Positions 4,877 to 17,361 of a DNA stretch of 21,240 nt are shown piece after piece. This DNA comes from a virus. The DNA lies in the IMG/VR virus record IMGVR_UViG_3300032053_011838, positions 1 through 21,240 of that record. One strand, written 5' to 3'. The stretch's first letter is position 1. Each line of letters begins with the position of its first letter. Under the pieces are notes generated by a model, which saw only the letters and a list, made by a program, of their open reading frames with translations, did no database searches and was not told the DNA's origin. Position numbers and translations under genes: made by a program.

Positions 4877-7261
4877 ATGACCCCTCAAGAATTCCTCGAA
4901 CAATTTACCTTCGGGGGCCTACTAACAGTCGCTATAGGCCCTCCTACAGCCAGGCGCTACTTTAACGCTGACGACCTCAGTACTTTGACAGTACCTCCAG
5001 ATGTCGATGTGTATTTCGGACCTGCTATGTGCAAAACGGCGGGGGCTGAAAAGAAAGACGTTTTGGGTACTAAAGTGTTGTGGGTTGATGTTGACGACGT
5101 TGGCAAGCCTCTGTGCACTCTTACGCCTTCCATAGCTGTGTTTAGCGGTCATGGGTGGCATTTGTATTGGATTTTAGCGGAACCGCTTCTCGACGTTGAT
5201 ACGATCGAAGCTTTGAACAAGACGCTAATGGACGATGTTCATACCGGTGGCGACTCCTGTTGGAACTGTAATAGAGTTTTACGTGTTCCCGGTACAACGA
5301 ACACCAAAGAAGAAGGAAAGCCTATTAGCGTAGAGCTTCGAAATTGGCGTCCTGGCTTAATCTATACCCCTCAAGAGATCGGTGTTATTGGACGTCTCAA
5401 TAAACAAGACAAGCACAAGATAACGACAGGTGATCGAAGAGGGTTTCGTTCACGAAGTGAACGTGATTGGGCTATTTTAACTGCACTCGTAGTAGCTGGA
5501 GCTGCTGACGAACTGATTCACAAAATCTTCGCAGAACACCCTTGTGGCGACAAGGCAAAGGAAAATGATCATTATCTTCCACACACAATAGAAGCTATAC
5601 GTGCAAAAGATTTGACTCCTGTAGAAGGAGATGACATTGTAGAACGTGACGACGGCTACTACGTTCCTGCACGTAAGGGATTCAAACGCATAAGTACTTT
5701 TTTGTTTGACCCGTTGTACTTGTTGGATGGATCTTCTTTCGGAGCAGCAGATGCCCTTGTAGGCGATGTAAGTGCTGAGGGTTTTGAGTGGCTCGGAGTT
5801 ACTTTTAGTAGAAGCGCCTTCACGTCTGTAAATAAGTTAGACAAGGAAGCTCCTGTAGCGGCGTGGCAGTTTCTGGGACACGATGATGAACTTCGTAGGT
5901 TACTTCCCTACTTTCTACAAAAGCTAAAGGGGAGGGGCCTACCTAAGATCGCCGCCACCCCGGTACTCGGATTACACAACATTAAGGGTGCTTGGCGTTT
6001 CTTGGGAACTAATCAAGCCTTAAGCGATACTCAATTGTGGGAACAGTATCAAGGTCCTATATGTTGGCTTCCCAGTCAAAAAGAACACCCGGAGCTTGAT
6101 TTGACCGTTCAAACAACTCCAGATGAGATTTTGCGAGTTGCGAAGAGTTTACCTTTATTGAATGAGCCAGGTACAATTTGGCCTATGATTGGTTGGTATA
6201 CCGCTTCTTGTTTGAAGCCTTGGTTTGAAGCACATAATTATAGGTTTCCAATACTCAACGTATCAGGTACAAAAGGTTCAGGCAAGACGTCGTTGATACA
6301 AAGAGTATTTATGCCGCTAATGGGCCAAACAAACCCTAAAACGTACGACGCAGGTACTACGAAGTTTATCATATTGTGTTTGTTGGGAGCAACGAATGCG
6401 GTACCAATTGCGTTTAGTGAATTTCGATATGGCTCAGTTGAAAACTTTATTCGGTTCATTCTCTTAGCCTACGATACAGGTCACGATCCGAGAGGTCGAG
6501 GAGACCAGACCACCGTAGATTATCCCCTATCCGCTCCCTTCAGTGTAGATGGAGAGGATCTTATCGATGATCCTGCGGCAAGAGAGCGAATAGTGGTGGC
6601 CCAGTTGCATCCAGAGGTCATTGACGAAGGTACAGTAGCTTATACAACCTTCCAGGAGCTTAGAAACAACATGCCTAAGTACTTCGGGGGGTACATGATA
6701 CAGGAAATTCTTAAATTGGAACCCCTGTTAGTTGATTTGCTATCCCGGGCTCGTACTGAAGTATTTGAGGCCTTCCCAGCAAAGCTTCCTGACAGGGTAC
6801 GTAACAACCATGTAGTTACTTATCTGGGCGTGCTTTTATGGTGTCGTATTTTAGGTGTCAATCCTCCTCCAGCTTCCGTAATGGAACGAAGCATCGCGTC
6901 TGTGTTTAACATCAAGTCTGGCAGAGCAAGAACTCTTGCAGATGCTATGGTTGAAGACCTTATAAATGGAATAGCACAAGGATTTGCCCATCTAAACTAC
7001 GTATATGATAACACCACAAACACTGTTTGGTTCCAGTTGGCGCCAGCACACACTTGGTGGATTACATCCAGGCGACGTCAAGGCCGTGGCAGTCTCGAGC
7101 GGGATGCTATCCGAGCTCAGCTCAAAGAAGCCCCTTACTCGGTCGAGCCTCATGTCATGAACGACGCCTGGATGTATGGCGTTGACCTGCAAGTGGCTGT
7201 GGATAACGGGCTTGACGTTCCTTCGAAAATATCGGACAATACCTTTGTAGTGAGAATGTAA
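4877..7261 (+). CDS. Primase-polymerase/helicase replication protein
   Basis: The 794-residue protein combines an archaeo-eukaryotic primase domain with a C-terminal ATPase. The primase domain shows the metal-binding DVD at 71-73, the SGHGWH nucleotide motif at 90-95, and NRVLRVPGTTN at 132-142, as in RepB/PrimPol-type phage primases. Residues 190-245 look like the PriCT-type helical linker. The ATPase has Walker A GTKGSGKT (464-471) followed by an acidic strand ending at Glu515, which could serve as Walker B. The protein would prime and unwind DNA at the phage fork, working with the downstream DNA polymerase. It is a normal size for a PrimPol-helicase fusion. The TAA stop overlaps the ATG of the next gene (TAATG). 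Helicase subfamily (SF3-like or other) cannot be settled by eye. Confidence 0.85.
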   Translation: MTPQEFLEQFTFGGLLTVAIGPPTARRYFNADDLSTLTVPPDVDVYFGPAMCKTAGAEKKDVLGTKVLWVDVDDVGKPLCTLTPSIAVFSGHGWHLYWILAEPLLDVDTIEALNKTLMDDVHTGGDSCWNCNRVLRVPGTTNTKEEGKPISVELRNWRPGLIYTPQEIGVIGRLNKQDKHKITTGDRRGFRSRSERDWAILTALVVAGAADELIHKIFAEHPCGDKAKENDHYLPHTIEAIRAKDLTPVEGDDIVERDDGYYVPARKGFKRISTFLFDPLYLLDGSSFGAADALVGDVSAEGFEWLGVTFSRSAFTSVNKLDKEAPVAAWQFLGHDDELRRLLPYFLQKLKGRGLPKIAATPVLGLHNIKGAWRFLGTNQALSDTQLWEQYQGPICWLPSQKEHPELDLTVQTTPDEILRVAKSLPLLNEPGTIWPMIGWYTASCLKPWFEAHNYRFPILNVSGTKGSGKTSLIQRVFMPLMGQTNPKTYDAGTTKFIILCLLGATNAVPIAFSEFRYGSVENFIRFILLAYDTGHDPRGRGDQTTVDYPLSAPFSVDGEDLIDDPAARERIVVAQLHPEVIDEGTVAYTTFQELRNNMPKYFGGYMIQEILKLEPLLVDLLSRARTEVFEAFPAKLPDRVRNNHVVTYLGVLLWCRILGVNPPPASVMERSIASVFNIKSGRARTLADAMVEDLINGIAQGFAHLNYVYDNTTNTVWFQLAPAHTWWITSRRRQGRGSLERDAIRAQLKEAPYSVEPHVMNDAWMYGVDLQVAVDNGLDVPSKISDNTFVVRM

Positions 7262-7842
7262 TGCCTCAAATAGACTTTACAAGTAAGCCAAACTTTGTAC
7301 GTCCCGAACTCCTGCAACATGGGCAGATTCCGCGACCCTTGGCAGGGGTTGCTCCTCGAATCGTTCTGGGTCAAGATTGGTGGGATATAGAGCGTAAGAA
7401 GGCGTACGAGGCAAATAAGTATTGTTGTTGGGCTTGCGGTGAAGAGGCTGCTTTGGAAGCTCATGAGGCATACACAATCGATTATATGAAGCTTACTATG
7501 ACCTTTACTGAGGTAGTAGCTTTGTGCTCGAAGTGTCATGGCTTCATTCACATCGGTCGATCGAGAATAAAAATGACGGAGCGAGAGTTTAAGGCCTTGG
7601 TGTTGCGAGGAGTGCGTCTTTTGAAGAAGGCAAAGCTAAAAGCTAATTGGGGTTTGAGGGCCGTATTGTCTGATGCTCCTTGGGCACCTCCGTTAGCTTC
7701 CTACATAATGGCCACTCCCTTAATGCGTGTAAGTCCTCCTTGGAACGCATGGCGTTTGGTGATTGCAAGCGATAAGTATCCTCCGAAGTTCAAAAATATT
7801 GAGGAGGCTAGCAAATTCTATGAGGAGAAAGACAATGGATAA
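7261..7842 (+). CDS. HNH-type zinc protein, possible endonuclease
   Basis: The 193-residue product begins at an ATG that overlaps the primase stop. Its middle carries an HNH-like zinc arrangement: Cys56 and Cys59 in CWACG, His68-Glu69 in EAHEAY, then Cys89 and Cys92 in LCSKCHGFIH with His93 and His97. This matches the usual H-E then LC..CH...H pattern of HNH nucleases. The C-terminal 90 residues have no recognised domain and include a Trp and Pro rich stretch (ILSDAPWAPPL-like). It could be a free homing-type nuclease or a phage-replication nuclease. It overlaps queC by 8 bases, so it is translated within the same operon. Substrate unknown. Confidence 0.65.
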   Translation: MPQIDFTSKPNFVRPELLQHGQIPRPLAGVAPRIVLGQDWWDIERKKAYEANKYCCWACGEEAALEAHEAYTIDYMKLTMTFTEVVALCSKCHGFIHIGRSRIKMTEREFKALVLRGVRLLKKAKLKANWGLRAVLSDAPWAPPLASYIMATPLMRVSPPWNAWRLVIASDKYPPKFKNIEEASKFYEEKDNG

Positions 7843-8512
7843 TTTAGTACTACTTTCTGGTGGGATGGATTCCGCTACTGCATTGGGATTAGCAATGAAG
7901 GATTCTCCCAACACAATGGCGGTGTCCATTCGTTATGGTTCGGTCCATAGCGACTCCGAAGCGAAAGCGGCTTTGGCTGTGGCTAACTGGTACGGACTTG
8001 GATTGCATGAGGTTTGCTTACCGCATTCGATTTTTCGAGGTGGTCAATCCTCGTTACTGGGCGAAAGTGAGATCCCTACTGAGGAGTACCATGATCCTGA
8101 GAAAGAGACACCCTCATCAACGGTGGTTCCTTTTCGAAATGCCTTATTTATCTCCGTTGCAGTTGCAATGGCTGAAGCGCAGGGATGCGCTCGAGTATGG
8201 CTTGCAGTTCATGCAACAGATCATTTAGGTTTTGCCTATCCTGATTGCTCTCCCGAGTTCATCGGATCTATGTTGTCCGCTACTTACATTGGAACACATC
8301 GAAAAGTACGTCTCATAACTCCGTTCCTATGGATCTCTAAAGCTCAAATTGTTAGGTTGGGGATGGAGCTAAGAGTACCCTACCAACTTACATGGTCGTG
8401 CTATCGTGGTGGCGATAGTTCATGTGGAGAGTGTCCGACGTGTCTTGAGCGGAAAAAAGCCTTTGCGGAGGCGTGCTATTTTGATCCCATTCCATATCTG
8501 AAGGAAGGTTAA
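7835..8512 (+). CDS. queC: QueC, 7-cyano-7-deazaguanine (preQ0) synthase
   Basis: The 225-residue enzyme starts at the ATG at 7835 after AGGAG; the frame is open further upstream but without a matching site or family residues. The PP-loop LSGGMDSAT (7-15) binds ATP. VPFRN (98-102) is a conserved family segment. The C-terminal zinc site CYRGGDSSCGECPTC uses Cys189, 197, 200 and 203. QueC converts 7-carboxy-7-deazaguanine to preQ0 with ATP and ammonia. Its usual length is about 220-230, so it is complete. Together with queD, queE and folE downstream it gives the full GTP to preQ0 route. With dpdA nearby the product is probably meant for DNA rather than tRNA. Confidence 0.95.
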   Translation: MDNLVLLSGGMDSATALGLAMKDSPNTMAVSIRYGSVHSDSEAKAALAVANWYGLGLHEVCLPHSIFRGGQSSLLGESEIPTEEYHDPEKETPSSTVVPFRNALFISVAVAMAEAQGCARVWLAVHATDHLGFAYPDCSPEFIGSMLSATYIGTHRKVRLITPFLWISKAQIVRLGMELRVPYQLTWSCYRGGDSSCGECPTCLERKKAFAEACYFDPIPYLKEG

Positions 8513-8513
8513 C

Positions 8514-8945
8514 ATGTTCAAACATAAGATATCACGTAAGTACGCATTTTCAGCCGCGCACAGACTTGAAGGTCATCCTAAATGTGGGAGGTTGCATGGC
8601 CACAATTACGTCGTCGAGGTTTGGCTTGAAGGTCCCTTAAAGGAGGGGATGGTGGTTGATTATGGCTTAATGGATCACATTGTCAAACCCGTTATAGACG
8701 AGTTCGATCATCGATTTATTGTAAGTCATGAAAATCGAGACTCAAATTGCGTTTACACCTTAGAAGCTCTGCGCAACAAAGACGCTGTAGATCTTCCCGC
8801 TGAACGTTCTACTGCAGAGTGTTTGTCTAAGTACTTCTACGAATTGTTTGCGGTAGCGTTTTCCAAAAATCCTGACTTCGTACATACTGTTGTCGCTGTT
8901 AGCGTTATGGAGACTGAAAAAAGTGTTGCCATCTATACTCCCTAA
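8514..8945 (+). CDS. queD: QueD, 6-carboxytetrahydropterin synthase
   Basis: The 143-residue protein is of the 6-pyruvoyl-tetrahydropterin synthase family. The zinc ligands are His16 in FSAAH and His28 and His30 in RLHGH. Cys24 of CGRLHGH is the expected catalytic cysteine of QueD. DYG near residue 49, FDH near 65 and STAE near 99 complete the active site. It converts dihydroneopterin triphosphate from FolE into 6-carboxy-tetrahydropterin. GAAGG lies upstream of the ATG, one base after the queC stop. The CGRLHGH pattern and the neighbours favour QueD over a biopterin enzyme. Confidence 0.94.
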   Translation: MFKHKISRKYAFSAAHRLEGHPKCGRLHGHNYVVEVWLEGPLKEGMVVDYGLMDHIVKPVIDEFDHRFIVSHENRDSNCVYTLEALRNKDAVDLPAERSTAECLSKYFYELFAVAFSKNPDFVHTVVAVSVMETEKSVAIYTP

Positions 8946-9324
8946 GAAATGCACTAGGTGTGGTTCGGAAGGCCCCTTTCCTAGAGACTCTACTAAGAAG
9001 GATGGGCTTTCTGCTTGGTGTAGAGCATGTCATAAGGCTACTGCAAGCATTAAGGTGCAACGACGGGCGAATCTGAAACATCATTACAAGATAACGCCTG
9101 AAATATACACAACCCTACTGCGCATGCAAAAGAATAGGTGTGCCATTTGTGGGAGAGACCAAGAGGAGGTCGGTAAACGCTTTGGTGTGGATCACGACCA
9201 CAAAACAGGAAACATCCGCGGACTTTTGTGTACTAAGTGCAATTCTGGTTTGGGTAACTTTAACGATGATGTGAGTGTTATCCTGTTGGCGGCCTACTAT
9301 TTGAAAGGATGCAAAAATGAATGA
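8923..9324 (+). CDS. Endonuclease VII-type HNH nuclease
   Basis: The 133-residue protein ends with the clear endonuclease VII signature: CAICG (73-77), VDHDHKTG (89-96) with RGLLC (99-103), and CNSGLGNFNDD (106-116). An N-terminal zinc-finger-like pair CTRCG and CRACH precedes it. I chose the GTG at 8923 because GGAG lies about 10 bases upstream; a TTG at 8890 would extend it further into queD. The gene overlaps the end of queD by 23 bases. Family members resolve branched DNA, as T4 gp49 does, or act as stand-alone homing-type nucleases. Its position inside the deazaguanine operon fits either a packaging or resolution role or a selfish insertion. Confidence 0.85.
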   Translation: MLPSILPKKCTRCGSEGPFPRDSTKKDGLSAWCRACHKATASIKVQRRANLKHHYKITPEIYTTLLRMQKNRCAICGRDQEEVGKRFGVDHDHKTGNIRGLLCTKCNSGLGNFNDDVSVILLAAYYLKGCKNE

Positions 9325-9595
9325 AGGCGTAAAGGAAGTTGTAGAAGGGCGCAACAAGGAGTATGCAGATGCTTGGGCGCGCACAGGGGTGTTAATTGCT
9401 CCCATAGCTTCGGAGGTTAACAAGCTTCTGGTAGAGTATCCTCAGATGTATTTTTCGTGGATGATGATACTGAATAAGTTATTACGTGTCCTTGGATCCC
9501 CAACAAATCCTGATCATTGGTTGGATATAGAAGGATATGCTCTTTTGGTTCGTAAATATATTACAGAAGGAGATCCATATGTACCAAGTAAATGA
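9317..9595 (+). CDS. Small DUF6378-like helical protein
   Basis: The 92-residue product overlaps the preceding gene by 8 bases and the next by 17. It is probably all helical. The sequence KEYADAWARTG near the start and ILNKLLRVLG followed by NPDHWLDIEGYALL near the end recall small phage proteins of the DUF6378 type. In those proteins a K/R-rich helix followed by H-x-D-x-x-DxxGY is conserved. That resemblance is from memory only. The residues hint at a compact metal- or nucleotide-binding bundle, as in MazG-like folds, but no activity is shown. It is co-translated with queE. Confidence 0.6.
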   Translation: MNEGVKEVVEGRNKEYADAWARTGVLIAPIASEVNKLLVEYPQMYFSWMMILNKLLRVLGSPTNPDHWLDIEGYALLVRKYITEGDPYVPSK

Positions 9596-10217
9596 AATAT
9601 TTCACTCCGTACAGGGGGAAGGATTTCACGTTGGTAAACCGGCAACGTTCATTCGTCTTCAAGGATGTTCTGTCGGCTGTAGCTGGTGCGATACTCAAAC
9701 CACATGGAAAGCTGGTGGCGAGCAGATGAGCGCCGCAGAGATCTGTATAAACGTATTTCCGTATTGGCGAGCTTGCGATAGGCCCTTTATAGTAATTACC
9801 GGTGGAGAGCCTACGTTATACGACCTCGATGCCTTGTTGGATGGATTGCGAAAGGGACGCGATGATGGTAGTTGTTGGCCCTATATCCAGCTTGAAACCT
9901 CGGGACAGAACAACCTTAAAGGATCGCTGCTTCCTGATTGGGTTACGTGGTCGCCTAAGAAGAATTTGGAGTATTGTGCTCCCGAGACTCTTTTAGGATT
10001 GGTAGATGAAGTCAAGTTTGTTGTAGATGACGACCTAACTGAGTTGCAGGTTGTCGATATTGACGCTCTTTTTCGCAGAAAGTATCCGCATATCGTTTTG
10101 ATGCCCGAAGGCTGCCCTCCCACGCTAGAACACATGCGTAAAGCCTATGAATGGGTTCTACGCCACCCTGCGTGGCGTGTCATAGATCGTCTGCAGTACC
10201 GCTTAGGAGTGAAATGA
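9579..10217 (+). CDS. queE: QueE, 7-carboxy-7-deazaguanine synthase (radical SAM)
   Basis: The 212-residue enzyme starts at the ATG at 9579, preceded by AAGGAG at good spacing; earlier in-frame starts lie inside the upstream gene. FHSVQGEG (8-15) is the QueE N-terminal motif. CSVGCSWC (30-37) binds the radical-SAM 4Fe-4S cluster, with Cys30, Cys34 and Cys37. TGGEPTL (74-80) is the SAM-binding GGE motif. It rearranges 6-carboxy-tetrahydropterin to 7-carboxy-7-deazaguanine. Its length is normal for the family. The stop overlaps the folE start as ATGA. Confidence 0.95.
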   Translation: MYQVNEIFHSVQGEGFHVGKPATFIRLQGCSVGCSWCDTQTTWKAGGEQMSAAEICINVFPYWRACDRPFIVITGGEPTLYDLDALLDGLRKGRDDGSCWPYIQLETSGQNNLKGSLLPDWVTWSPKKNLEYCAPETLLGLVDEVKFVVDDDLTELQVVDIDALFRRKYPHIVLMPEGCPPTLEHMRKAYEWVLRHPAWRVIDRLQYRLGVK

Positions 10218-10789
10218 AAAAGACAATGCTTGCCAACGAGTATTTTGAAAAGCACGACGTTGTAAACCTCTCAAGCACTCTTGAGGCAATCTTCGGTACA
10301 GACTGTTGGGATGATGACATAGAGCTTACAGCGGCAAGGTGGCTTAAAGCAATGAAGGAGTTTTCCCCCAAAGGAGAAATGCCTTTCAAGATTACCACCT
10401 TTCCAGCAAAGGTTAACCAGTTAATCGTGGTTGCAGATATCGAGTTCTCCTCTTTGTGCGCCCATCATTTGTTTCCGTTTGTAGGAAAGTGCCACGTAGG
10501 TTACATTCCTAATAAACTTCAAATAGGTCTAAGTAAGATACCCAGAATCGTTCACCACTTTGCAACTGGACCTCAGACACAAGAAAGGCTAACCGAACAA
10601 ATTGCTTCCTTTCTCAAACATGAGTTGGAGGCTATGGGCGTAGGAGTTGTTCTAGAATCAACTCATACGTGCATGTCGGCACGAGGAGTGAGGGAGCACA
10701 ACGGAGTGATGCGAACCTCCGAAATGCGTGGTCTCTTTTTAACCGCTTCAGAAGCTCGCAAAGAGTTTCTTTCGCTTATTGGAAAGTAG
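10214..10789 (+). CDS. folE: FolE, GTP cyclohydrolase I
   Basis: The product has 191 residues from the ATG at 10214, with TTAGGAG upstream and an ATGA overlap with queE. The type I active site is intact: LCAHHLFPF with Cys82 and His85 as zinc ligands and Cys153 in HTCMSARG as the third. GLSKIPRIV and QTQERLT are also present. It opens GTP to dihydroneopterin triphosphate, the first step toward preQ0. Folate synthesis would use the same reaction, but the operon context with queD, queE, queC and dpdA points to 7-deazaguanine production. Confidence 0.95.
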   Translation: MKKTMLANEYFEKHDVVNLSSTLEAIFGTDCWDDDIELTAARWLKAMKEFSPKGEMPFKITTFPAKVNQLIVVADIEFSSLCAHHLFPFVGKCHVGYIPNKLQIGLSKIPRIVHHFATGPQTQERLTEQIASFLKHELEAMGVGVVLESTHTCMSARGVREHNGVMRTSEMRGLFLTASEARKEFLSLIGK

Positions 10790-10795
10790 GATAAC

Positions 10796-11527
10796 ATGAA
10801 GTTCGCTCTTATAACAGCTCCCAACGGATTTGAAATCCTAGATGTTCTGCATCTATCTTATCATTTGGTACTTGCCCAATACAAAGACGATTATGCCTAT
10901 CTCAGTCGCTACAAAGTAGCACATCGTTTAGGTGATTTTGTTATGGTAGATAATGGTGCGGCTGAGCTCGGACGTTCTATTCCCTTTGAACAGGTACTTG
11001 ACTTCGCAAACGCAATACGTGCTGACGAAGTAATATTACCAGATGTGCTAGATGATTCGGTCGCCACTGTAAAAAGCTCAATAGAAACGGCACACTTCTT
11101 ACCTCCTAAGAAGTGTGCGGTCGTTCCGCAAGGAAGTAACTGGGATGAGTGGACTTGGTGCCTCAAAGAGTTACTTTCTCTAGGATGTCGTACCATTTGC
11201 ATTGCAAAAAGGTACGAAAGACTTCCTGGAGGGCGTCCGCATGCATTAGGTATTTTGCGTAAAATGGATTTACTTGATAGATACGACATTCACTTATTAG
11301 GTTTTGATGGCGACCCCCTCAAGGAAATTAGAGAGGCTCTTGCTTGCTATCAAGGTATCCGCGGAGTAGACTCCGCAGTACCTCTTGCATGGGCTCAACA
11401 AGGAATGCAACTTGGAGAGGCTCACCGCAGTTATACGTGGGGAGGGCGTTTTGTAGGCGCCTTGGCTACATATAATGCACGTCAAATCCTGTCGGCGTGT
11501 AATACGGAGTTCATATGCACATCATAA
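10796..11527 (+). CDS. dpdA: DpdA, TGT-like DNA guanine-exchange enzyme
   Basis: The 243-residue protein has the TIM-barrel signature of the tRNA-guanine transglycosylase superfamily. VDNGAAEL (51-58), LPDVLDD (81-87), VPQG (110-113), LGFDGDP (168-174) and RGVDSAVP (189-196) are visible. Asp52 and Asp192 are the likely counterparts of the TGT base and nucleophile. The zinc site CxCxxC of true tRNA TGT enzymes is absent and the protein is shorter than tRNA TGTs, as in phage DpdA proteins. DpdA swaps a guanine in DNA for preQ0 or a derivative, and such bases have been shown to protect phage DNA from host restriction. It sits directly after folE in the pathway operon. Assigning DNA rather than tRNA as target is inference from context and missing zinc site. 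Confidence 0.88.
   Translation: MKFALITAPNGFEILDVLHLSYHLVLAQYKDDYAYLSRYKVAHRLGDFVMVDNGAAELGRSIPFEQVLDFANAIRADEVILPDVLDDSVATVKSSIETAHFLPPKKCAVVPQGSNWDEWTWCLKELLSLGCRTICIAKRYERLPGGRPHALGILRKMDLLDRYDIHLLGFDGDPLKEIREALACYQGIRGVDSAVPLAWAQQGMQLGEAHRSYTWGGRFVGALATYNARQILSACNTEFICTS
11090..11118 (+). repeat. Perfect 12-bp hairpin inside dpdA
   Basis: Bases 11090-11101 (GCACACTTCTTA) are exactly complementary to 11107-11118, separated by the loop CCTCC. It lies wholly within codons for AHFLPPKKCA. No T tract follows, so it is not a standard terminator. It may be a chance result of codon choice, an mRNA processing or pausing structure, or a site on the DNA. Confidence 0.7.
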
Positions 11528-11766
11528 TAAAGGATCCTGAAACAGGAGAAACTCTAGCAATACTTTGCATAGAACGGAGCATACACTCTTGTCAAATCAT
11601 ACATGCTGATATGGACCACATGACTGAGATTTTAGGAGTTGCTCTTGGAATGAAGGTAAACGAAGTACGTATTATAGTGCCTCAGCAAGTAGTAGCGGAG
11701 ATGATTGAATTGGGCTGGGAAGTCGCTACGGAGAGTGTTGCGATGGTGAAGAGAAATGGCAAATAG
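11515..11766 (+). CDS. Small unknown protein between dpdA and the polymerase
   Basis: The 83-residue product starts at an ATG with GGAG upstream and overlaps both neighbours, by 13 bases with dpdA and 11 with the polymerase. The sequence looks like a small alpha/beta fold: a strand pair at the start (IIIKDPETGETLAIL), a helix, then KVNEVRIIVPQQVVAEMIEL and a final strand. The last half is vaguely like the C-terminal part of an acetyltransferase fold, but there is no acetyl-CoA motif. No family is recognised. Its position suggests a helper for base modification or for the polymerase, without proof. Confidence 0.6.
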   Translation: MHIIIKDPETGETLAILCIERSIHSCQIIHADMDHMTEILGVALGMKVNEVRIIVPQQVVAEMIELGWEVATESVAMVKRNGK

Positions 11767-14080
11767 ACTTCCGTTCGCTCAATGCGAAGAGTGTCCTCTT
11801 CTTTGGGACAGCCTCCGTGCAGTAGAGGGTTATGGCCCCTTAGATGCCAAAGTAATTGTTGTTGGTGAAGCTCCAGGGGCTTCGGAAGAGGCACAAGGCA
11901 TTCCCTTCGTAGGTCAGAGTGGGCAATTGCTGGATGCTGCCTTTGCCCAAACAGAAGGCTCTTTGGTCTTCAAAACCAATGTTGTGGCTTGTCGGCCCCC
12001 AAACAATCGTGAGCCCACTGAGGTTGAAGTTAAGTGCTGCAAACCCCGCTTACTTCATGAGCTTGAGACATTAGCAGGGAACCGCGTTATGGCGCTAGGG
12101 CACACGGCCTGTGATTTCTTTTCGGTACCTTTTGGGGAGCGCGGAGCAGTGTTTTCCTGGAACGATAAGTTGGTAATGCCTAACTGGCATCCCGCCTACA
12201 TCCTTCGAGCACCTGATGACGCTTCGGAGTTCCTAGGGCTTGTAAAACGTATTGTAGAGGGCCCCTTCGAAGTTAACTATCTTAAGTGGCCAGAAGTTAG
12301 GTGGGTGACTACCGTAGACGACTTGCGTGTTGCGTTGGCTGAGTGTCCCGACGACGCGTGGGTGGCGTTTGACATCGAAACGGATCAGGTACAATGGTAC
12401 GATACTCCTACTAAGCCCCGCGACAGCATTTTGATGTTGCAAATTGCATGGTCGCCCGACTTCGCCCTGATTTTGTCCGACGAGATGTTATACGATGTTG
12501 AGGGCGTGCCAGAGGTGTTGCAAGCGTTCTTTGGTCGCGTAAAAACCGTTGGTCATAATGCGAAGTTCGACTGTGTGTTCCTAAAGTCCCATTTAGGGTT
12601 GTCGATCGTTCAGGATGCAGATACTATGTTGGCTCACTATACTCTTGATGAGAACAAGAAGCATGGCTTGAAGTGGGTAGTACGCAACGAATTTGGTATT
12701 CCTGATTATGAAGAAGCAACAATTACTCAGTATCTGTCATCAAGGAATGATCGTTACTCCAAAATACCCCCAGAAGAGCTTGCTAAGTATGGAGCTATGG
12801 ATGTAGTTGCGACGCTTAGACTTAGGGAGCTTTTGGAGAATCGTTTAAGAGCCGAGGGCATGTACGAGTGGCCTTATAAAAATGTTTTGATGGACGCTGC
12901 TAACTGCCTTGCCGAAGTAGAGCTTAGAGGGATGTTGGTTGACCGTATGCAGTTAGATAAGGCATCAGTGGATCTAGAAGAAATCTTGTTGCGTTTAACA
13001 GAGCGGATTCGTGGCTTGGCGAATGAGCCTGATTTGAACCCTCGATCCACCCAACAAATAGCAACTGTGTTGTACGAAAAACTACACCTTCCGTTGCAAC
13101 GGGGTAGGAACGTTCCTCCACGCTCAACAGGTAAGGAGGTGCTTGAAAAGTTACAAGGTAAGCACCCTGTTATTCCTGTGCTTGTTAGGTATAGACGTGT
13201 TCATAAAATGAAGAGCTCCTACGTTGAGAATTTGCGGGAGTATTTGGATTGTGAAGGAAGAGTGCATGCTAACTTCAAAATCCCGGGAACGGAGGTTAGT
13301 CGTTTAGCAGTTTCTGATCCTGCGTTGCAAACCGTACCTCGTCCTTCCGATTATTTCGGGGCCCTCATACGAAGCTCCTTCATAGCGCGCGATGGGTACG
13401 TTTTACTCGTATGCGACTATTCGCAAGCCGAAATTCGCATAATGGCTTGCGAGAGCGGTGAGCCGTTCCTAATCAAAGTTTACGAAGATGATCGCGACTT
13501 GCACTCTGAGGTAGCTCTTGCTATGTATGGGTCAAACTATACCAAGGAACAGCGTGTGCAGTGTAAGATGTTCAACTTCTCTTATCAATATGGAGGCACT
13601 GAGTACTCCTTCGCCCAAGGAGCTGGTTTGAATATTGAGGTTGCTAGGGCATTTGTAAAAGAGTACAACAAGCTAATGCCAGTAGGTCTTGCATGGAAAA
13701 AAGCCCAGCTTCAAATTGCCCGTTCGCAAGGATATGTTCAAACGAGGTTTGGCCGCCGAAGAAGGTTTCCCTTTATCACACAAGAGACTTTAGATGATGC
13801 GCGGAAGGCCTGCGTTCATATGGTGTGCGCGTCGTCTGCAAGCGACCTGACTCTGATATCGGGCAATCAATTGATTCGTATGGGAGTCCCCGTAGTGTTG
13901 GAAGTGCATGATAGCATTGTAGCAGAATGTAAAGAGGATTTCGCTGAGGAGGTAGGTCTTATGATGACTACTACTATGAAGAGCAATGCAGAGAAATACT
14001 TTCCCGAAGTTCCTTGGAAAGTTGACTTAGATGTTTCGACGAGGTGGGCCGAACCGCTTCCTTTGCCGGAGGAAATATGA
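11756..14080 (+). CDS. Fusion of family-4 uracil-DNA glycosylase and A-family DNA polymerase
   Basis: The 774-residue protein has three parts. Residues 1-170 form a family-4 uracil-DNA glycosylase: VGEAPGASEEAQGIPFVG (37-53), the HPAY motif (145-148), and Cys10, Cys13, Cys79 and Cys95 placed as for its 4Fe-4S cluster. Residues 185-360 form a 3'-5' proofreading exonuclease with Asp206 and Glu208, Asn268 and Asp272, and Tyr345 with Asp349. The polymerase follows with motif A CDYSQAEIR (553-561), the O-helix with Lys604 and Phe608, and VHDS (717-720). It lacks a 5' nuclease domain. It should be the replicative polymerase. The glycosylase would remove uracil at or ahead of synthesis, or detect it. 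I recall UDG-like domains on some phage polymerases, such as SPO1. All key residues seem intact. Confidence 0.93.
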   Translation: MANRLPFAQCEECPLLWDSLRAVEGYGPLDAKVIVVGEAPGASEEAQGIPFVGQSGQLLDAAFAQTEGSLVFKTNVVACRPPNNREPTEVEVKCCKPRLLHELETLAGNRVMALGHTACDFFSVPFGERGAVFSWNDKLVMPNWHPAYILRAPDDASEFLGLVKRIVEGPFEVNYLKWPEVRWVTTVDDLRVALAECPDDAWVAFDIETDQVQWYDTPTKPRDSILMLQIAWSPDFALILSDEMLYDVEGVPEVLQAFFGRVKTVGHNAKFDCVFLKSHLGLSIVQDADTMLAHYTLDENKKHGLKWVVRNEFGIPDYEEATITQYLSSRNDRYSKIPPEELAKYGAMDVVATLRLRELLENRLRAEGMYEWPYKNVLMDAANCLAEVELRGMLVDRMQLDKASVDLEEILLRLTERIRGLANEPDLNPRSTQQIATVLYEKLHLPLQRGRNVPPRSTGKEVLEKLQGKHPVIPVLVRYRRVHKMKSSYVENLREYLDCEGRVHANFKIPGTEVSRLAVSDPALQTVPRPSDYFGALIRSSFIARDGYVLLVCDYSQAEIRIMACESGEPFLIKVYEDDRDLHSEVALAMYGSNYTKEQRVQCKMFNFSYQYGGTEYSFAQGAGLNIEVARAFVKEYNKLMPVGLAWKKAQLQIARSQGYVQTRFGRRRRFPFITQETLDDARKACVHMVCASSASDLTLISGNQLIRMGVPVVLEVHDSIVAECKEDFAEEVGLMMTTTMKSNAEKYFPEVPWKVDLDVSTRWAEPLPLPEEI

Positions 14081-14388
14081 GCAAACCAGTTTCAGCCCCC
14101 TTGAAAAATGCCGATGATATAATATTGACTCGGTGCAGGGCCTACGTCTATCGTAAGCACTACCTTCAGTTGGTGGTGTTTTCGACTTGGTGGTCGGAGG
14201 TCGAGAGTGTGTCCTATAGTTTTGGAGGGCACATATATAAGCATGGTACAGGTTTTATATGGATCCTTGCAAAGCGAGACTCTATCCTTGCTTTAGTAAC
14301 ACACCTTAAACCCTTCTTTCCATCCTTTACGGGTTTTGAGTCGAAGGTTTTGGATATCTACCCCCTAGAAAAGTACCTCACTACGTAG
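14077..14388 (+). CDS. Unknown 103-residue protein at the end of the + operon
   Basis: The ATG at 14077 follows GGAGG and overlaps the polymerase stop as ATGA, so it belongs to the same operon. The product is aromatic and basic. Its second half (SFGGHIYKHGTGFIWILAK, then a helix ending LKPFF) recalls part of a LAGLIDADG-type fold, but no full LAGLIDADG motif is present. I therefore do not call it a homing nuclease. It is the last + gene, and its stop lies inside the palindrome where the two gene blocks meet. Confidence 0.6.
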   Translation: MSKPVSAPLKNADDIILTRCRAYVYRKHYLQLVVFSTWWSEVESVSYSFGGHIYKHGTGFIWILAKRDSILALVTHLKPFFPSFTGFESKVLDIYPLEKYLTT

Positions 14389-14392
14389 TGAG
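14377..14392. terminator. 16-nt perfect palindrome at the convergent junction
   Basis: CTCACTACGTAGTGAG is its own reverse complement. It contains the stop codons of both the + strand gene (TAG 14386-14388) and the - strand glycosyltransferase (14383-14381). As RNA it could fold to a 6-bp stem with a four-base loop on either strand. No T tract follows on either side, so intrinsic termination would be weak. A protein-binding site is an equal possibility. Confidence 0.45.
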
Positions 14393-15103
14393 TATGTGAT
14401 CTATAAAGATTTGTACCTCTGGCGTTACAAGCTCAGCCAAGGGTGGGCGTACTGCTAAACCCCCTGCTATATGTAACATTTTAATCCTTTTGTTGTTTAG
14501 CTCTAAATGATCCCCCACTACGACTATCTTACGCCATAAATCCCAGAAGGTTTTTGTTCCCTCAACGATAGAAGTGCCGTAGTAAATCGAGCCTTCTAAA
14601 GGGTCTAGAATCTTGGTGCTATACTTAGGAAGATGGAAGACAATATTGAAGGTATCATTTTCTCCATACTTGTATTCTAGTACGTTGTCTTTCGTATAGC
14701 GCAACCACTCCTCCATAAAAGCCGCCGAGGAGACTGAGTGAATCCCTGCATTTACATACTTATGCCATGGGATGTTATGCAGCGTAACACCTTCGTGAGT
14801 AGTGCACCTATTGTTGTCGGTATTATTCCGACCAGCTCTAGCATCTGTACTGTCGTCAAACAGTTCGTCTATTCGATCAACGATGATCACGTCTGCATCG
14901 ATGTGGGTAACAGTTGAATACTTTTTGAACAAGGGAAGCTCCATCAAAGGATACCCCCAAGTGTCCAAACCAAGCAACATAAACTCCTTACGTTCAATGA
15001 TCTCCAGATTAACCTCAGGATGGAAGTGTAGGAGGCTTTTTATCATTCTTTCATGTTCGAACTTGAAGTCTCGGTAGAAACTAGACACGCAGCTCTTAGT
15101 CAT
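14381..15103 (-). CDS. GT8-like glycosyltransferase
   Basis: The 240-residue protein looks like a GT-A fold transferase. The DxD metal site is in HIDADVIIVDRIDELFD (67-83; Asp69 and Asp71). YVNAGI (117-121), GENDTFN (147-153) and HIAGG (211-215) follow in the order seen in family 8. Such enzymes use a nucleotide sugar and a divalent metal to glycosylate an acceptor. No signal peptide or membrane segment is seen, so it acts in the cytoplasm. It is the last gene of the - strand cassette and overlaps the methyltransferase by 8 bases. The acceptor could be a cell-surface glycan, a small molecule or a protein; DNA is less likely. The family call is firm, the acceptor unknown. Confidence 0.8.
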   Translation of the reverse strand: MTKSCVSSFYRDFKFEHERMIKSLLHFHPEVNLEIIERKEFMLLGLDTWGYPLMELPLFKKYSTVTHIDADVIIVDRIDELFDDSTDARAGRNNTDNNRCTTHEGVTLHNIPWHKYVNAGIHSVSSAAFMEEWLRYTKDNVLEYKYGENDTFNIVFHLPKYSTKILDPLEGSIYYGTSIVEGTKTFWDLWRKIVVVGDHLELNNKRIKMLHIAGGLAVRPPLAELVTPEVQIFIDHILTT

Positions 15104-15737
15104 AGTAGGCCACCAATCGATGACAGAGGTATTCTCGATAGGGAGATATAGATGTTGATAAGGCTACGCGAAATCCGTGAATGTAAAATAGCCGTTCCAA
15201 GTGTGCTTTTGTGAACTTGTTAATGTGTTGAAAATGGTAGTCATAGGTGAAAGAGGTAACATCCTCCCATATAGGACCCTCTACTACAACCACCCCTTCT
15301 TTAGCTATATGCCTTTTCACGCTCCTAAGCATTTCGTCGGGATTGTATATATGCTCGAGGGTATGTGAAAAGACGAATGTGTTGATCACCCCATTAAAAA
15401 CATCTCCAGGACCGTGCACGGCTACATTGGAGAATCCTTTTGCCGACAGTATTTGTGCTAGACAGCCGTCTGTACCTCCTACATCAACTAGGGGAGCGTT
15501 TAGGGGGAAGTTACACAAAAAGGTAGCAAGGTTTTCCAAGCGCTCGGTTGAGTACGGAGCATCGTCTGTTCGGTACACCTTTTTATAGAATACGTCTAAC
15601 GTTGCTTCCGTAGCAGCTGGGGAGTCGAGATATAACATGTCGCAAATACCACATCGATACAAACTCCAATCGATACCGTTATACTCTTTTACGAGAAGAC
15701 GCCTATAAGGAGCTAAACATATTGGACAGTTTCTCAT
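15096..15737 (-). CDS. SAM-dependent methyltransferase with N-terminal zinc ribbon
   Basis: The 213-residue protein begins with a zinc-ribbon-like module: Cys4 and Cys7 in CPIC, then Cys29 and Cys32 in CGIC. A class I methyltransferase core follows, with motif I LVDVGGTDGCLA (83-94) and the post-motif FSHTLEHIYNPDEML (123-137). A similar N-terminal zinc module occurs in sugar C-methyltransferases that act on nucleotide sugars. This protein stops after the core and lacks their usual extra C-terminal domain. It overlaps the ThDP gene by 4 bases and the glycosyltransferase by 8. With those two neighbours a sugar substrate is likely. Small-molecule or lipid targets remain possible. Confidence 0.8.
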   Translation of the reverse strand: MRNCPICLAPYRRLLVKEYNGIDWSLYRCGICDMLYLDSPAATEATLDVFYKKVYRTDDAPYSTERLENLATFLCNFPLNAPLVDVGGTDGCLAQILSAKGFSNVAVHGPGDVFNGVINTFVFSHTLEHIYNPDEMLRSVKRHIAKEGVVVVEGPIWEDVTSFTYDYHFQHINKFTKAHLERLFYIHGFRVALSTSISPYREYLCHRLVAYYD

Positions 15738-16849
15738 ATCTCACCTCGTATTGGGGGTGTCATAGATTCCATTGGATCGGAGACTATGACATTGTTAACT
15801 ATTCTGCTTGCTACCTTATAAACCGGACGAAAATCCAAAGAACACTTAACACAAGTAAGAGTTGCCTTAGGTGTGTTTAGGATTTGCGGTAGTAAACTTA
15901 GGGATGCGTTGTTAGCAATTGTATGAAAAGGGATATCCCAAACACTCGCTATCTGTTTAAGGTCTGGAAGGGTAAGACCACTAGAAGGATCGCTACCTAC
16001 CAAATGTTGAAAGTGGGTTTCTTGCATAGTGTGAATACTTCCATACCCTCCATTGTCAAAGATAAAGTAGTGTATGTTCAGGTCAAGCCGTTTTACAACC
16101 TCCAGCTCTTGAAGATTCTGGACAAAGCCCCCATCGCCCGTTACTACGATGGTACGTCTGTTAGAAGCAATCGCAGCTCCAATTGCCATTGGCTCCATAC
16201 CCATTGCTCCTATAGTATTGCATACTAAAACCTTCTGACCCTTCTTTACTTTGAAAGACTGCAGGAAGGCGCAGGATTGTTGTCCTGAAGAGCCTGGGAC
16301 TAAGATGTCCTCTGGAGTGCATGCGTTCGACAGTTCTCGAGTAAAGCTATAGGGGTTGACTAACTCGGTGGAATCGTCACCTTCTAATTCGAACCTCAGA
16401 CGATTATAAAGATCCTTACATTCCCTTAGCCAACTAACTTCGCCTTGTACAAATGGCAATAACCGAATTCCGTATTCGGTAGATACAGGATGATTTAGAT
16501 CCATTGCGAAGCACGCCCATTCCTTAGGATACTTCATGAGCTCTGCTGGATCCACGTCTACAACCGTTTTAGTTGCTTTAGGAGCAAAGTTTGTCACATT
16601 GTGGCCTACTTGTTCGCCATCCAGCCTTGCCCCTACTACCATTAACCAATTACAGTTTTGTTGAATGATGTTAGCCGCTCGTTGGCCCAGTACCCCTGGC
16701 CGACCGCAAAAGATAGGGTTGTCTTCGGATATTAAATCGCACGCCTGCCAGGTAGTCAACACAGGTACGTTAAGCTGGCAGAGTAGGTCTACCAAGGATG
16801 GATTATACCGCAGTCCGTTCCCAAACAGAAATACAGGCTTCAAAATCAT
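15734..16849 (-). CDS. ThDP-dependent enzyme, middle and PP domains (second half of a split acetolactate-synthase-like enzyme)
   Basis: The 371-residue product contains the central ThDP-enzyme domain (PVLTTWQACDLI, 29-40; GRPGVLGQRAAN, 49-60). The C-terminal diphosphate-binding domain follows: IGAMGMEPMAIGAAIA at 213-228, GDGGFVQN at 238-245, then DNGGYGSI at 265-272. Asp239 and Asn266 are the expected Mg-ThDP ligands. The nearest pattern I recall is the acetolactate-synthase-like group often found in O-antigen or capsule clusters. The catalytic-glutamate half is on the gene directly upstream, which this one overlaps by ATGA. The ATG at 16849 is used because earlier in-frame residues do not look like the family. 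It is probably non-functional alone and should pair with the upstream half. Confidence 0.88.
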   Translation of the reverse strand: MILKPVFLFGNGLRYNPSLVDLLCQLNVPVLTTWQACDLISEDNPIFCGRPGVLGQRAANIIQQNCNWLMVVGARLDGEQVGHNVTNFAPKATKTVVDVDPAELMKYPKEWACFAMDLNHPVSTEYGIRLLPFVQGEVSWLRECKDLYNRLRFELEGDDSTELVNPYSFTRELSNACTPEDILVPGSSGQQSCAFLQSFKVKKGQKVLVCNTIGAMGMEPMAIGAAIASNRRTIVVTGDGGFVQNLQELEVVKRLDLNIHYFIFDNGGYGSIHTMQETHFQHLVGSDPSSGLTLPDLKQIASVWDIPFHTIANNASLSLLPQILNTPKATLTCVKCSLDFRPVYKVASRIVNNVIVSDPMESMTPPIRGEI

Positions 16850-17361
16850 ACCTCCATCCCCTGAACGTCTAAAGGAATTGACAACCAACATGGACCAGGT
16901 CTTCTATCTTTGCATGTTGCAATCATACGCTCAAGCATGCAAAGGAGGCTCTCTACACCATCTGCCTGCCACGCAAGTTTTGTAATAGGCGTAACTAACG
17001 GAATAATATCTACTTCTTGCACACCCTTAGTACGCATATTACTACTCCCCACCAACGTAGTGGATTTTGCTTGCCCGCTAATAAACAAAATAGGAATACT
17101 GTCCATCCATGCGGCAGCACACGCGGATAAAACATTAGTGGATCCGGGACCTGACGTTACAAGGCATGCGCCCAGGTTTTTTGTCGCCATAGAGTACCCT
17201 ATTGCCATGTAGCCAGCTCCTTGTTCGTGCAGGGCGGCTACGTATGTTAGGTTAGACCGCCCAAGGGCGTCGACTAAGTACATCGCCCCTCCTCCTGCGA
17301 CGAAGAAAATTGTAGTAAGTTCTTTTTCTAGTTCTTTGAAAAGAGCGTCAGCTATTCTCAT
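16846..17361 (-). CDS. ThDP-dependent enzyme, pyrimidine-binding domain (first half of a split acetolactate-synthase-like enzyme)
   Basis: The 171-residue protein is a complete N-terminal Pyr domain. It shows FVAGGGAMYLVDAL (20-33), the catalytic Glu46 within LHEQGAGYMA (44-53), LVTSGPGSTNVLSA (67-80), and DSIPILFISGQ (87-97). The end SIPLDVQGMEV is where the Pyr domain of acetolactate-synthase-like enzymes normally finishes. GGAGG lies three bases upstream of the ATG at 17361. In full-length relatives a linker leads to the middle domain; here a stop occurs and the second gene starts in the same ATGA. Both halves sum to about 540 residues, normal for the intact enzyme. This half provides activation of the ThDP ring and should need the other subunit. 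Confidence 0.88.
   Translation of the reverse strand: MRIADALFKELEKELTTIFFVAGGGAMYLVDALGRSNLTYVAALHEQGAGYMAIGYSMATKNLGACLVTSGPGSTNVLSACAAAWMDSIPILFISGQAKSTTLVGSSNMRTKGVQEVDIIPLVTPITKLAWQADGVESLLCMLERMIATCKDRRPGPCWLSIPLDVQGMEV

Follow-up and report, generated by a model that had tools for sequence, protein, structure and literature searches.

The 21,240-base linear fragment IMGVR_UViG_3300032053_011838 from IMG/VR (the window), which covers its phage genome only in part, carries at positions 7835-11527 a run of seven genes on one strand. They encode QueC, QueD, an endonuclease VII-type protein, a DUF6378-like protein, QueE, FolE and a protein resembling tRNA-guanine transglycosylases (TGTs). 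Neighbouring genes in the run overlap or are separated by gaps of 1-6 nt. We interpret this operon as a candidate phage module for substituting a 7-deazaguanine base for guanine in DNA. Its genes are:

7835..8512, + strand: QueC, 7-cyano-7-deazaguanine synthase (Pfam E 5.6e-54; NCBIfam TIGR00364, 157.2 bits against a cut-off of 150.3)
8514..8945, + strand: QueD, 6-carboxytetrahydropterin synthase (PTPS, E 5.9e-27)
8890..9324, + strand: endonuclease VII-type HNH protein, given as the maximal open reading frame (ORF) with an uncertain start codon (Endonuclease_7, E 7.3e-23)
9317..9595, + strand: DUF6378-like four-helix protein (PF19905, E 2.2e-5, below the cut-off; AlphaFold2 model with a predicted local distance difference test score, pLDDT, of 90.9)
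9579..10217, + strand: QueE, 7-carboxy-7-deazaguanine synthase, a radical SAM protein (TIGR04322, E 1.2e-28; TIGR04508, E 2.1e-22; phrog_2076, E 8.6e-28)
10214..10789, + strand: FolE, GTP cyclohydrolase I (PF01227, E 1.2e-49)
10796..11527, + strand: short predicted DNA-guanine transglycosylase of the DpdA superfamily, CP220-like subfamily, 243 aa (assigned by fold, profile and tree)

A short transglycosylase of the DpdA superfamily

The transglycosylase gene at 10796-11527 has no match in Pfam or NCBIfam, and in PHROGs it matches only families of unknown function. An AlphaFold2 model of the protein, built from 59 relatives, reached a pLDDT of 96.3. The nearest solved structures identified with Foldseek are a TGT (1iq8, E 3.6e-9) and DpdA (7ui4, E 2.6e-6), the latter being the structure of a DNA preQ0 insertase, or DNA-guanine transglycosylase. 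The sequence profile of the family also matches 7ui4 (E 2.7e-5). The model has the (beta/alpha)8 barrel of TGTs with its catalytic aspartates, D52, D83 and D192 all being conserved; E57, H166, G169, R189 and N227 are conserved as well. Among the 59 relatives, D52 and D192 are each present in 58 and H166 in all 59. The CxCxxC zinc motif of tRNA-guanine transglycosylases occurs in 0 of 59 family members.

Placing the enzyme in DpdA1 or DpdA2 by sequence failed, whether by hmmsearch, by profile searches of genomes or by profile-profile alignment. DpdA proteins of the 9g, CAjan, Dp-1 and Rosebush types scored below 5 bits in hmmsearch, with no match in those genomes, and the family profile found no match in the Rosebush-type phage Arbiter. 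Profile-profile comparison with 9g-type DpdA gave a weak alignment (E 0.007), in which D52, H166 and D192 are paired with a conserved Asp, H196 and a conserved Asp, respectively. DpdA2 of Vibrio phage nt-1 belongs to the same superfamily and flanks a preQ0 cluster, but it has 464 aa, and its match to the window profile (12.1 bits, E 0.008, over 77 positions) is too weak to count as homology. Proteins of the nt-1 DpdA2 type are also said to lack the conserved His, whereas the window enzyme has H166.

Because fold and profile both match, yet the DpdA proteins of 9g, CAjan, Dp-1 and Arbiter are not detected and the zinc motif is missing, we assign the enzyme to the TGT/DpdA superfamily and, within it, to a short subfamily of its own. 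Among cultured phages, the family profile matches proteins of Campylobacter phage CP220 (E 7.2e-31, positions 8-245), Cellulophaga phage phiST (E 5e-39) and Flavobacterium phage immuto (E 2e-40), the last of which is annotated as a DNA guanine transglycosylase. The cultured relatives, all of them confirmed by profile, further include Bacillus and Weizmannia phages that share the gene order of the window. A subfamily termed DpdA3, for which complete guanine replacement would be possible, has reportedly been named by Cui and colleagues in 2023, in keeping with the CP220 match. We take the window enzyme to be very probably of this type.

Synthesis of preQ0 and a QueC variant

A preliminary description of this DNA had listed QueC, QueD, QueE, FolE and a DpdA-type enzyme, and all five are borne out by Pfam and NCBIfam matches, by motifs and by the TGT/DpdA fold. 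It had also called their active sites intact. This holds for QueD (C24 and HGHN), for QueE (CxxxCxxC, present as CSVGCSWC), for FolE (CAHH and HTCMSARG) and for most motifs of QueC (SGGMDS, PFRN, YPDC and the zinc cysteines C-x7-CxxCxxC), but not for the YxQxHxxE motif of QueC, which reads YGSVHSDSE, with Ser in place of Gln. As for the enzyme that it named DpdA, the fold and the DNA-type character stand, whereas the protein is not of a characterised phage type and belongs instead to the short CP220-like subfamily.

By homology and motifs, FolE, QueD, QueE and QueC together form a complete pathway from GTP to preQ0. The window QueC keeps Y35, R99, Y131 and Y189, which are essential in E. coli QueC (Libby 2026, PMC13329287). 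YGSxH is found throughout the clade of the window (defined below). QueC of CP220 has likewise changed to YGSxH and also shows FPDC and CNVC differences. In the QueC tree the YGSxH sequences of the window clade and of CP220 lie on separate branches, and the Gln-to-Ser change originated independently in the two lineages.

Conservation of the operon among viral loci

Two scans yielded 80 viral loci; L-numbers below denote individual loci. The DpdA tree groups the window into a 21-row clade (support 98/92). The gene order in this clade is primase, QueC, QueD, (endonuclease VII), DUF6378, QueE, FolE, DpdA, 83-aa protein and a fusion of uracil-DNA glycosylase (UDG) with DNA polymerase A (PolA). Since the genes are tightly packed and about 20 other phage contigs show the same operon order, a chance assembly can be excluded. 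DUF6378 is present in 19 of the 21 rows and the endonuclease VII-type gene in most relatives, and both genes are conserved members of the module and not random insertions. A polymerase gene lies within 500 nt after DpdA in 72 of 82 loci.

Bacillus phages BSTP12 and BSP7 and Weizmannia phage Youna2 share the order primase, QueC, QueD, QueE, FolE, short DpdA and PolA; they differ from the window in having a kinase-like gene directly before DpdA, FADS in place of YPDC in QueC, and no DUF6378. The set of FolE, QueD, QueE and QueC with a DNA-guanine transglycosylase and without an amidotransferase is also that of CAjan and Rosebush. In those phages, however, DpdA has about 310-380 aa and about 30% of G is replaced, QueC has YGQxH, and neither a DUF6378 nor a UDG-PolA neighbour is found, whereas the window enzyme has 243 aa and no relation to theirs by sequence search. 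CP220 and CPt10 (Firehammervirus) resemble the window in having a transglycosylase of the same family and QueC with YGSxH; unlike in the window, their genes are scattered over a 177-kb genome with HD and kinase neighbours, and the base has been measured as dADG.

Several loci depart from the common layout. In 11 loci (L002, L003, L004, L008-L011, L014, L015, L017 and L048), DUF6378 and QueE are separated by a conserved protein of about 123 aa without a Pfam match, which is missing from the window. Tandem pairs of short DpdA genes occur in L023 (9941-11415) and L073 (9146-10972). In the stretches examined, L039 and L075 encode QueD, QueE, FolE and DpdA without QueC, which would predict a carboxy-deazaguanine base. 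Conversely, L032 (contig G013, 49.8 kb) and L019 encode QueC, DUF6378, DpdA and PolA, with no QueD, QueE or FolE in the stretch examined; both carry a transporter of the Vut_1/YhhQ type, and we read them as a salvage variant. L061 and L078 encode QueC-like proteins of 480 aa, which are probable Gat-QueC fusions.

A probable 7-deazaguanine DNA-substitution module

With a probability of about 0.75, we consider the window to encode a phage 7-deazaguanine DNA-substitution module. In this module FolE, QueD, QueE and QueC, by homology, convert GTP to preQ0, and the short TGT-fold enzyme would exchange guanine for a 7-deazaguanine base in phage DNA. The exchange step follows from the fold, the conserved catalytic residues, the position in the operon and the relatives of the enzyme. 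The base would then be expected to shield the phage DNA from host restriction and related nucleases, as is known for such phages.

The same genes might instead raise the supply of queuosine precursors for host tRNA without any modification of DNA, a role suggested for phages that have preQ0 genes and lack DpdA, and one that would fit TGTs being the nearest solved folds. We regard this as very unlikely, given that the family profile matches the DNA-guanine transglycosylase 7ui4, that CxCxxC is absent from all 59 relatives, that the enzyme lies within a replication block, and that CP220, a phage with fully substituted dG, encodes a relative. Points against a DNA-substitution module of the proposed kind are the missing sequence-search link to the DpdA proteins of 9g, CAjan, Dp-1 and Rosebush type, owing to which their substrate preference cannot be transferred to the window enzyme; the Gln-to-Ser change in QueC, which is common to the window clade and the dADG phage CP220; and the fact that the base is a prediction made for a fragmentary contig.

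As to the base itself, the preliminary description had noted no QueF, amidotransferase or other tailoring enzyme and had predicted dPreQ0. The former observation is confirmed: searches of the window for QueF, GATase_6, ArcS and formyltransferase found none. The prediction of dPreQ0 keeps its ground in part, in that CAjan and Rosebush have dPreQ0 with the minimal set, but the CP220-like enzyme and QueC make dADG a close rival, and dADG with complete replacement has to be taken as seriously as partial dPreQ0. DpdA together with FolE, QueD, QueE and QueC and no amidotransferase yields dPreQ0 in both of those phages (Hutinet 2019, PMC6884629), and because this set without tailoring genes is the one present in the window, we favour dPreQ0 as the most likely inserted base, at roughly even odds.

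The strongest competitor is dADG, which we hold to be somewhat less probable than dPreQ0. It would arise if the QueC variant carried out just the first amidation (CDG to ADG) and ADG were then the base inserted by the short DpdA. In CP220 and CPt10, 100% of dG is dADG (PMC8306585), and CP220 combines a transglycosylase of the same family with a QueC that has the same YGSxH change, acquired separately from the window clade. The 49.8-kb contig G013 (L032) points the same way: it retains QueC, DUF6378 and DpdA and lacks QueD, QueE and FolE, as if its QueC supplied what the host does not. However, CP220 is one phage and thus a single data point, the essential residues of E. coli QueC are all retained in the window, and the Gln-to-Ser change alone may not matter: the further FPDC and CNVC changes in CP220 QueC weaken any step from the QueC sequence to dADG.

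We think it unlikely that a tailoring enzyme outside the fragment or among the unassigned genes alters the final base. Genes of this sort do occur on related scaffolds, namely QueF in L038 and L042, which are more distant relatives (in each on the scaffold that carries the operon) and show that the QueF search works, GATase in L021 and L023 only, as a separate gene on the scaffold, and a methyltransferase with a DJ-1/PfpI protein in L002; in the window, too, the opposite strand carries a methyltransferase gene and a GT8 gene. But these two genes stand apart from the operon, beside a gene for a thiamine diphosphate (ThDP) enzyme, and the closest near-complete relatives (L008, L009 and L011, 48-56 kb) have no QueF, GATase, ArcS or formyltransferase. 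Formyltransferase was also not found in the window and 17 related records, nor ArcS anywhere in the records searched. In L002 (6903-8739) the methyltransferase, a conserved 121-aa protein and the DJ-1/PfpI protein, possible tailoring genes, lie between DUF6378 and QueE, and DJ-1/PfpI genes recur in six operons.

The degree of replacement may be predicted from the subfamily. Hutinet 2019 (PMC6884629) classed the Campylobacter phages as lacking DpdA and mentioned a route via modified dGTP for them, but the short family does have a member of full length in CP220 (profile E 7e-31). Because the window enzyme shares its subfamily with that of CP220, a fully substituted phage, extensive replacement is likelier than that of about 30% of G, and guanine replacement in the window's phage is probably extensive by this analogy.

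The window adds a new phage lineage to a known kind of 7-deazaguanine module, complete here, whose divergent insertion enzyme and variant QueC turn the base and the extent of replacement into testable questions. The clade-specific change in QueC predicts a testable difference in product, preQ0 or ADG, and the supported clade of about 20 contigs offers a compact operon and a minimal 243-aa enzyme suited to expression. Unnamed hypothetical proteins of Campylobacter, Cellulophaga and Bacillus phages are also linked by this family to the insertion step.

Exchange on DNA or on nucleotides

Complete guanine replacement is rare among phages, and these sequences make it testable whether the base enters as a nucleotide or on finished DNA. 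In a nucleotide-pool route, dGTP would be cut to dGMP, the base exchanged, the triphosphate rebuilt by a kinase and the product incorporated by PolA, leading to complete replacement. A nucleotide-level pathway is known from 2-aminoadenine phages, in which a MazG relative converts dGTP to dGMP (PMC8342488). Several features of the short-DpdA loci are in line with such a route, and a modified-dGTP route has been mentioned for Campylobacter phages (Hutinet 2019). Outside the window clade, a MazG-type pyrophosphatase is a frequent neighbour of short DpdA and a P-loop kinase an occasional one. Recognised pyrophosphatases (MazG-type or related: MAZ, C33 and C39) are encoded no more than 1.5 kb from the enzyme in 19 of 64 short-DpdA loci compared with 0 of 70 CAjan-type loci. 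P-loop kinases stand directly upstream of DpdA in L006, L007, L026, L035, L041, L043, L066 and L069, the neighbours in cultured phages include HD and P-loop proteins (CP220), MazG and a kinase (phiST) and PRA-PH and a kinase (immuto), and DpdA adjoins a polymerase in the great majority of loci, as given above.

The pyrophosphatase enrichment is confounded by relatedness, however, and loses significance after strict dereplication, the control amounting to 3-6 lineages (the Rosebush- and Dp-1-type control scans gave two loci each). Moreover, no MazG or nucleoside monophosphate kinase is recognised in the window and its clade, the sole exceptions being ORFs with a weak likeness to MazG/PRA-PH in L022 and L017, and the DUF6378 protein shows neither a MazG fold nor the ExxE acids. 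With the comparison confounded and the window clade without a recognised MazG or kinase, the nucleotide-level model is a hypothesis for the family; for the window itself we consider such exchange improbable. A fuller version, in which short DpdA acts on free nucleotides with pyrophosphatase, kinase and polymerase to give guanine-free genomes and the QueC variant of the window clade supplies ADG, seems to us slightly less probable again. Exchange on DNA is preferred for the window. Cui and colleagues are said to have argued for a post-replicative step.

DUF6378 was considered as a MazG-like pyrophosphatase and rejected, since Foldseek gave no match, ExxE is absent and a profile comparison with the MazG cluster gave no match either. 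Invariant residues of the DUF6378-like family are R12, K54, R57, W68 and D70. In CP220 (53542-56035; L093 6868-9358), the DpdA-like gene is flanked by genes for a P-loop kinase and for a protein with HD and P-loop parts.

Neighbouring genes in the window

Genes upstream of the operon encode a primase, an SSB-like protein, a Sak4-like protein, a PD-(D/E)XK protein and an SNF2 helicase, which places the operon within a replication block. The transglycosylase gene is followed by the gene for the 83-aa protein and then by a UDG-exonuclease-PolA fusion. The adjoining features are:

4877..7261, + strand: primase/helicase-like replication protein (phrog_3123, E 1.7e-18; phrog_10514, DNA primase, E 1.5e-14)
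7261..7842, + strand: HNH-type endonuclease preceding the operon (phrog_5200, E 2.7e-20)
11515..11766, + strand: 83-aa conserved protein between DpdA and polymerase (homologues at the equivalent spot in most of the window clade)
11756..14080, + strand: family-4 UDG domain, 3'-5' exonuclease and DNA polymerase A (PF03167, E 4.3e-24; PF01612, E 1.3e-18; PF00476, E 8.1e-72)

The primase/helicase-like gene keeps its position in relatives and belongs to the conserved block. The HNH-type gene, which overlaps QueC by 8 nt, is found in L002, L003, L009 and L011 and not in L004, L005 or L008. Scanning with the polymerase did not turn up a longer version of this phage, and host inference failed, the genome collection giving one contig of a Cloacimonadota metagenome-assembled genome only. 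Full-length matches similar to the UDG-PolA protein (11756-14080) occur in Serratia, Brevundimonas and other phages.

On the minus strand, a GT8-like glycosyltransferase and a class I methyltransferase (14381-15737) adjoin the ThDP gene; neither of the two was seen in the compared loci. The ThDP enzyme itself (15734-17361, minus strand) is acetolactate-synthase-like and is broken into two overlapping ORFs in different frames, with the N domain at 16846-17361 and the M and C domains at 15734-16891, which may reflect a real split, a frameshift or a sequence error.

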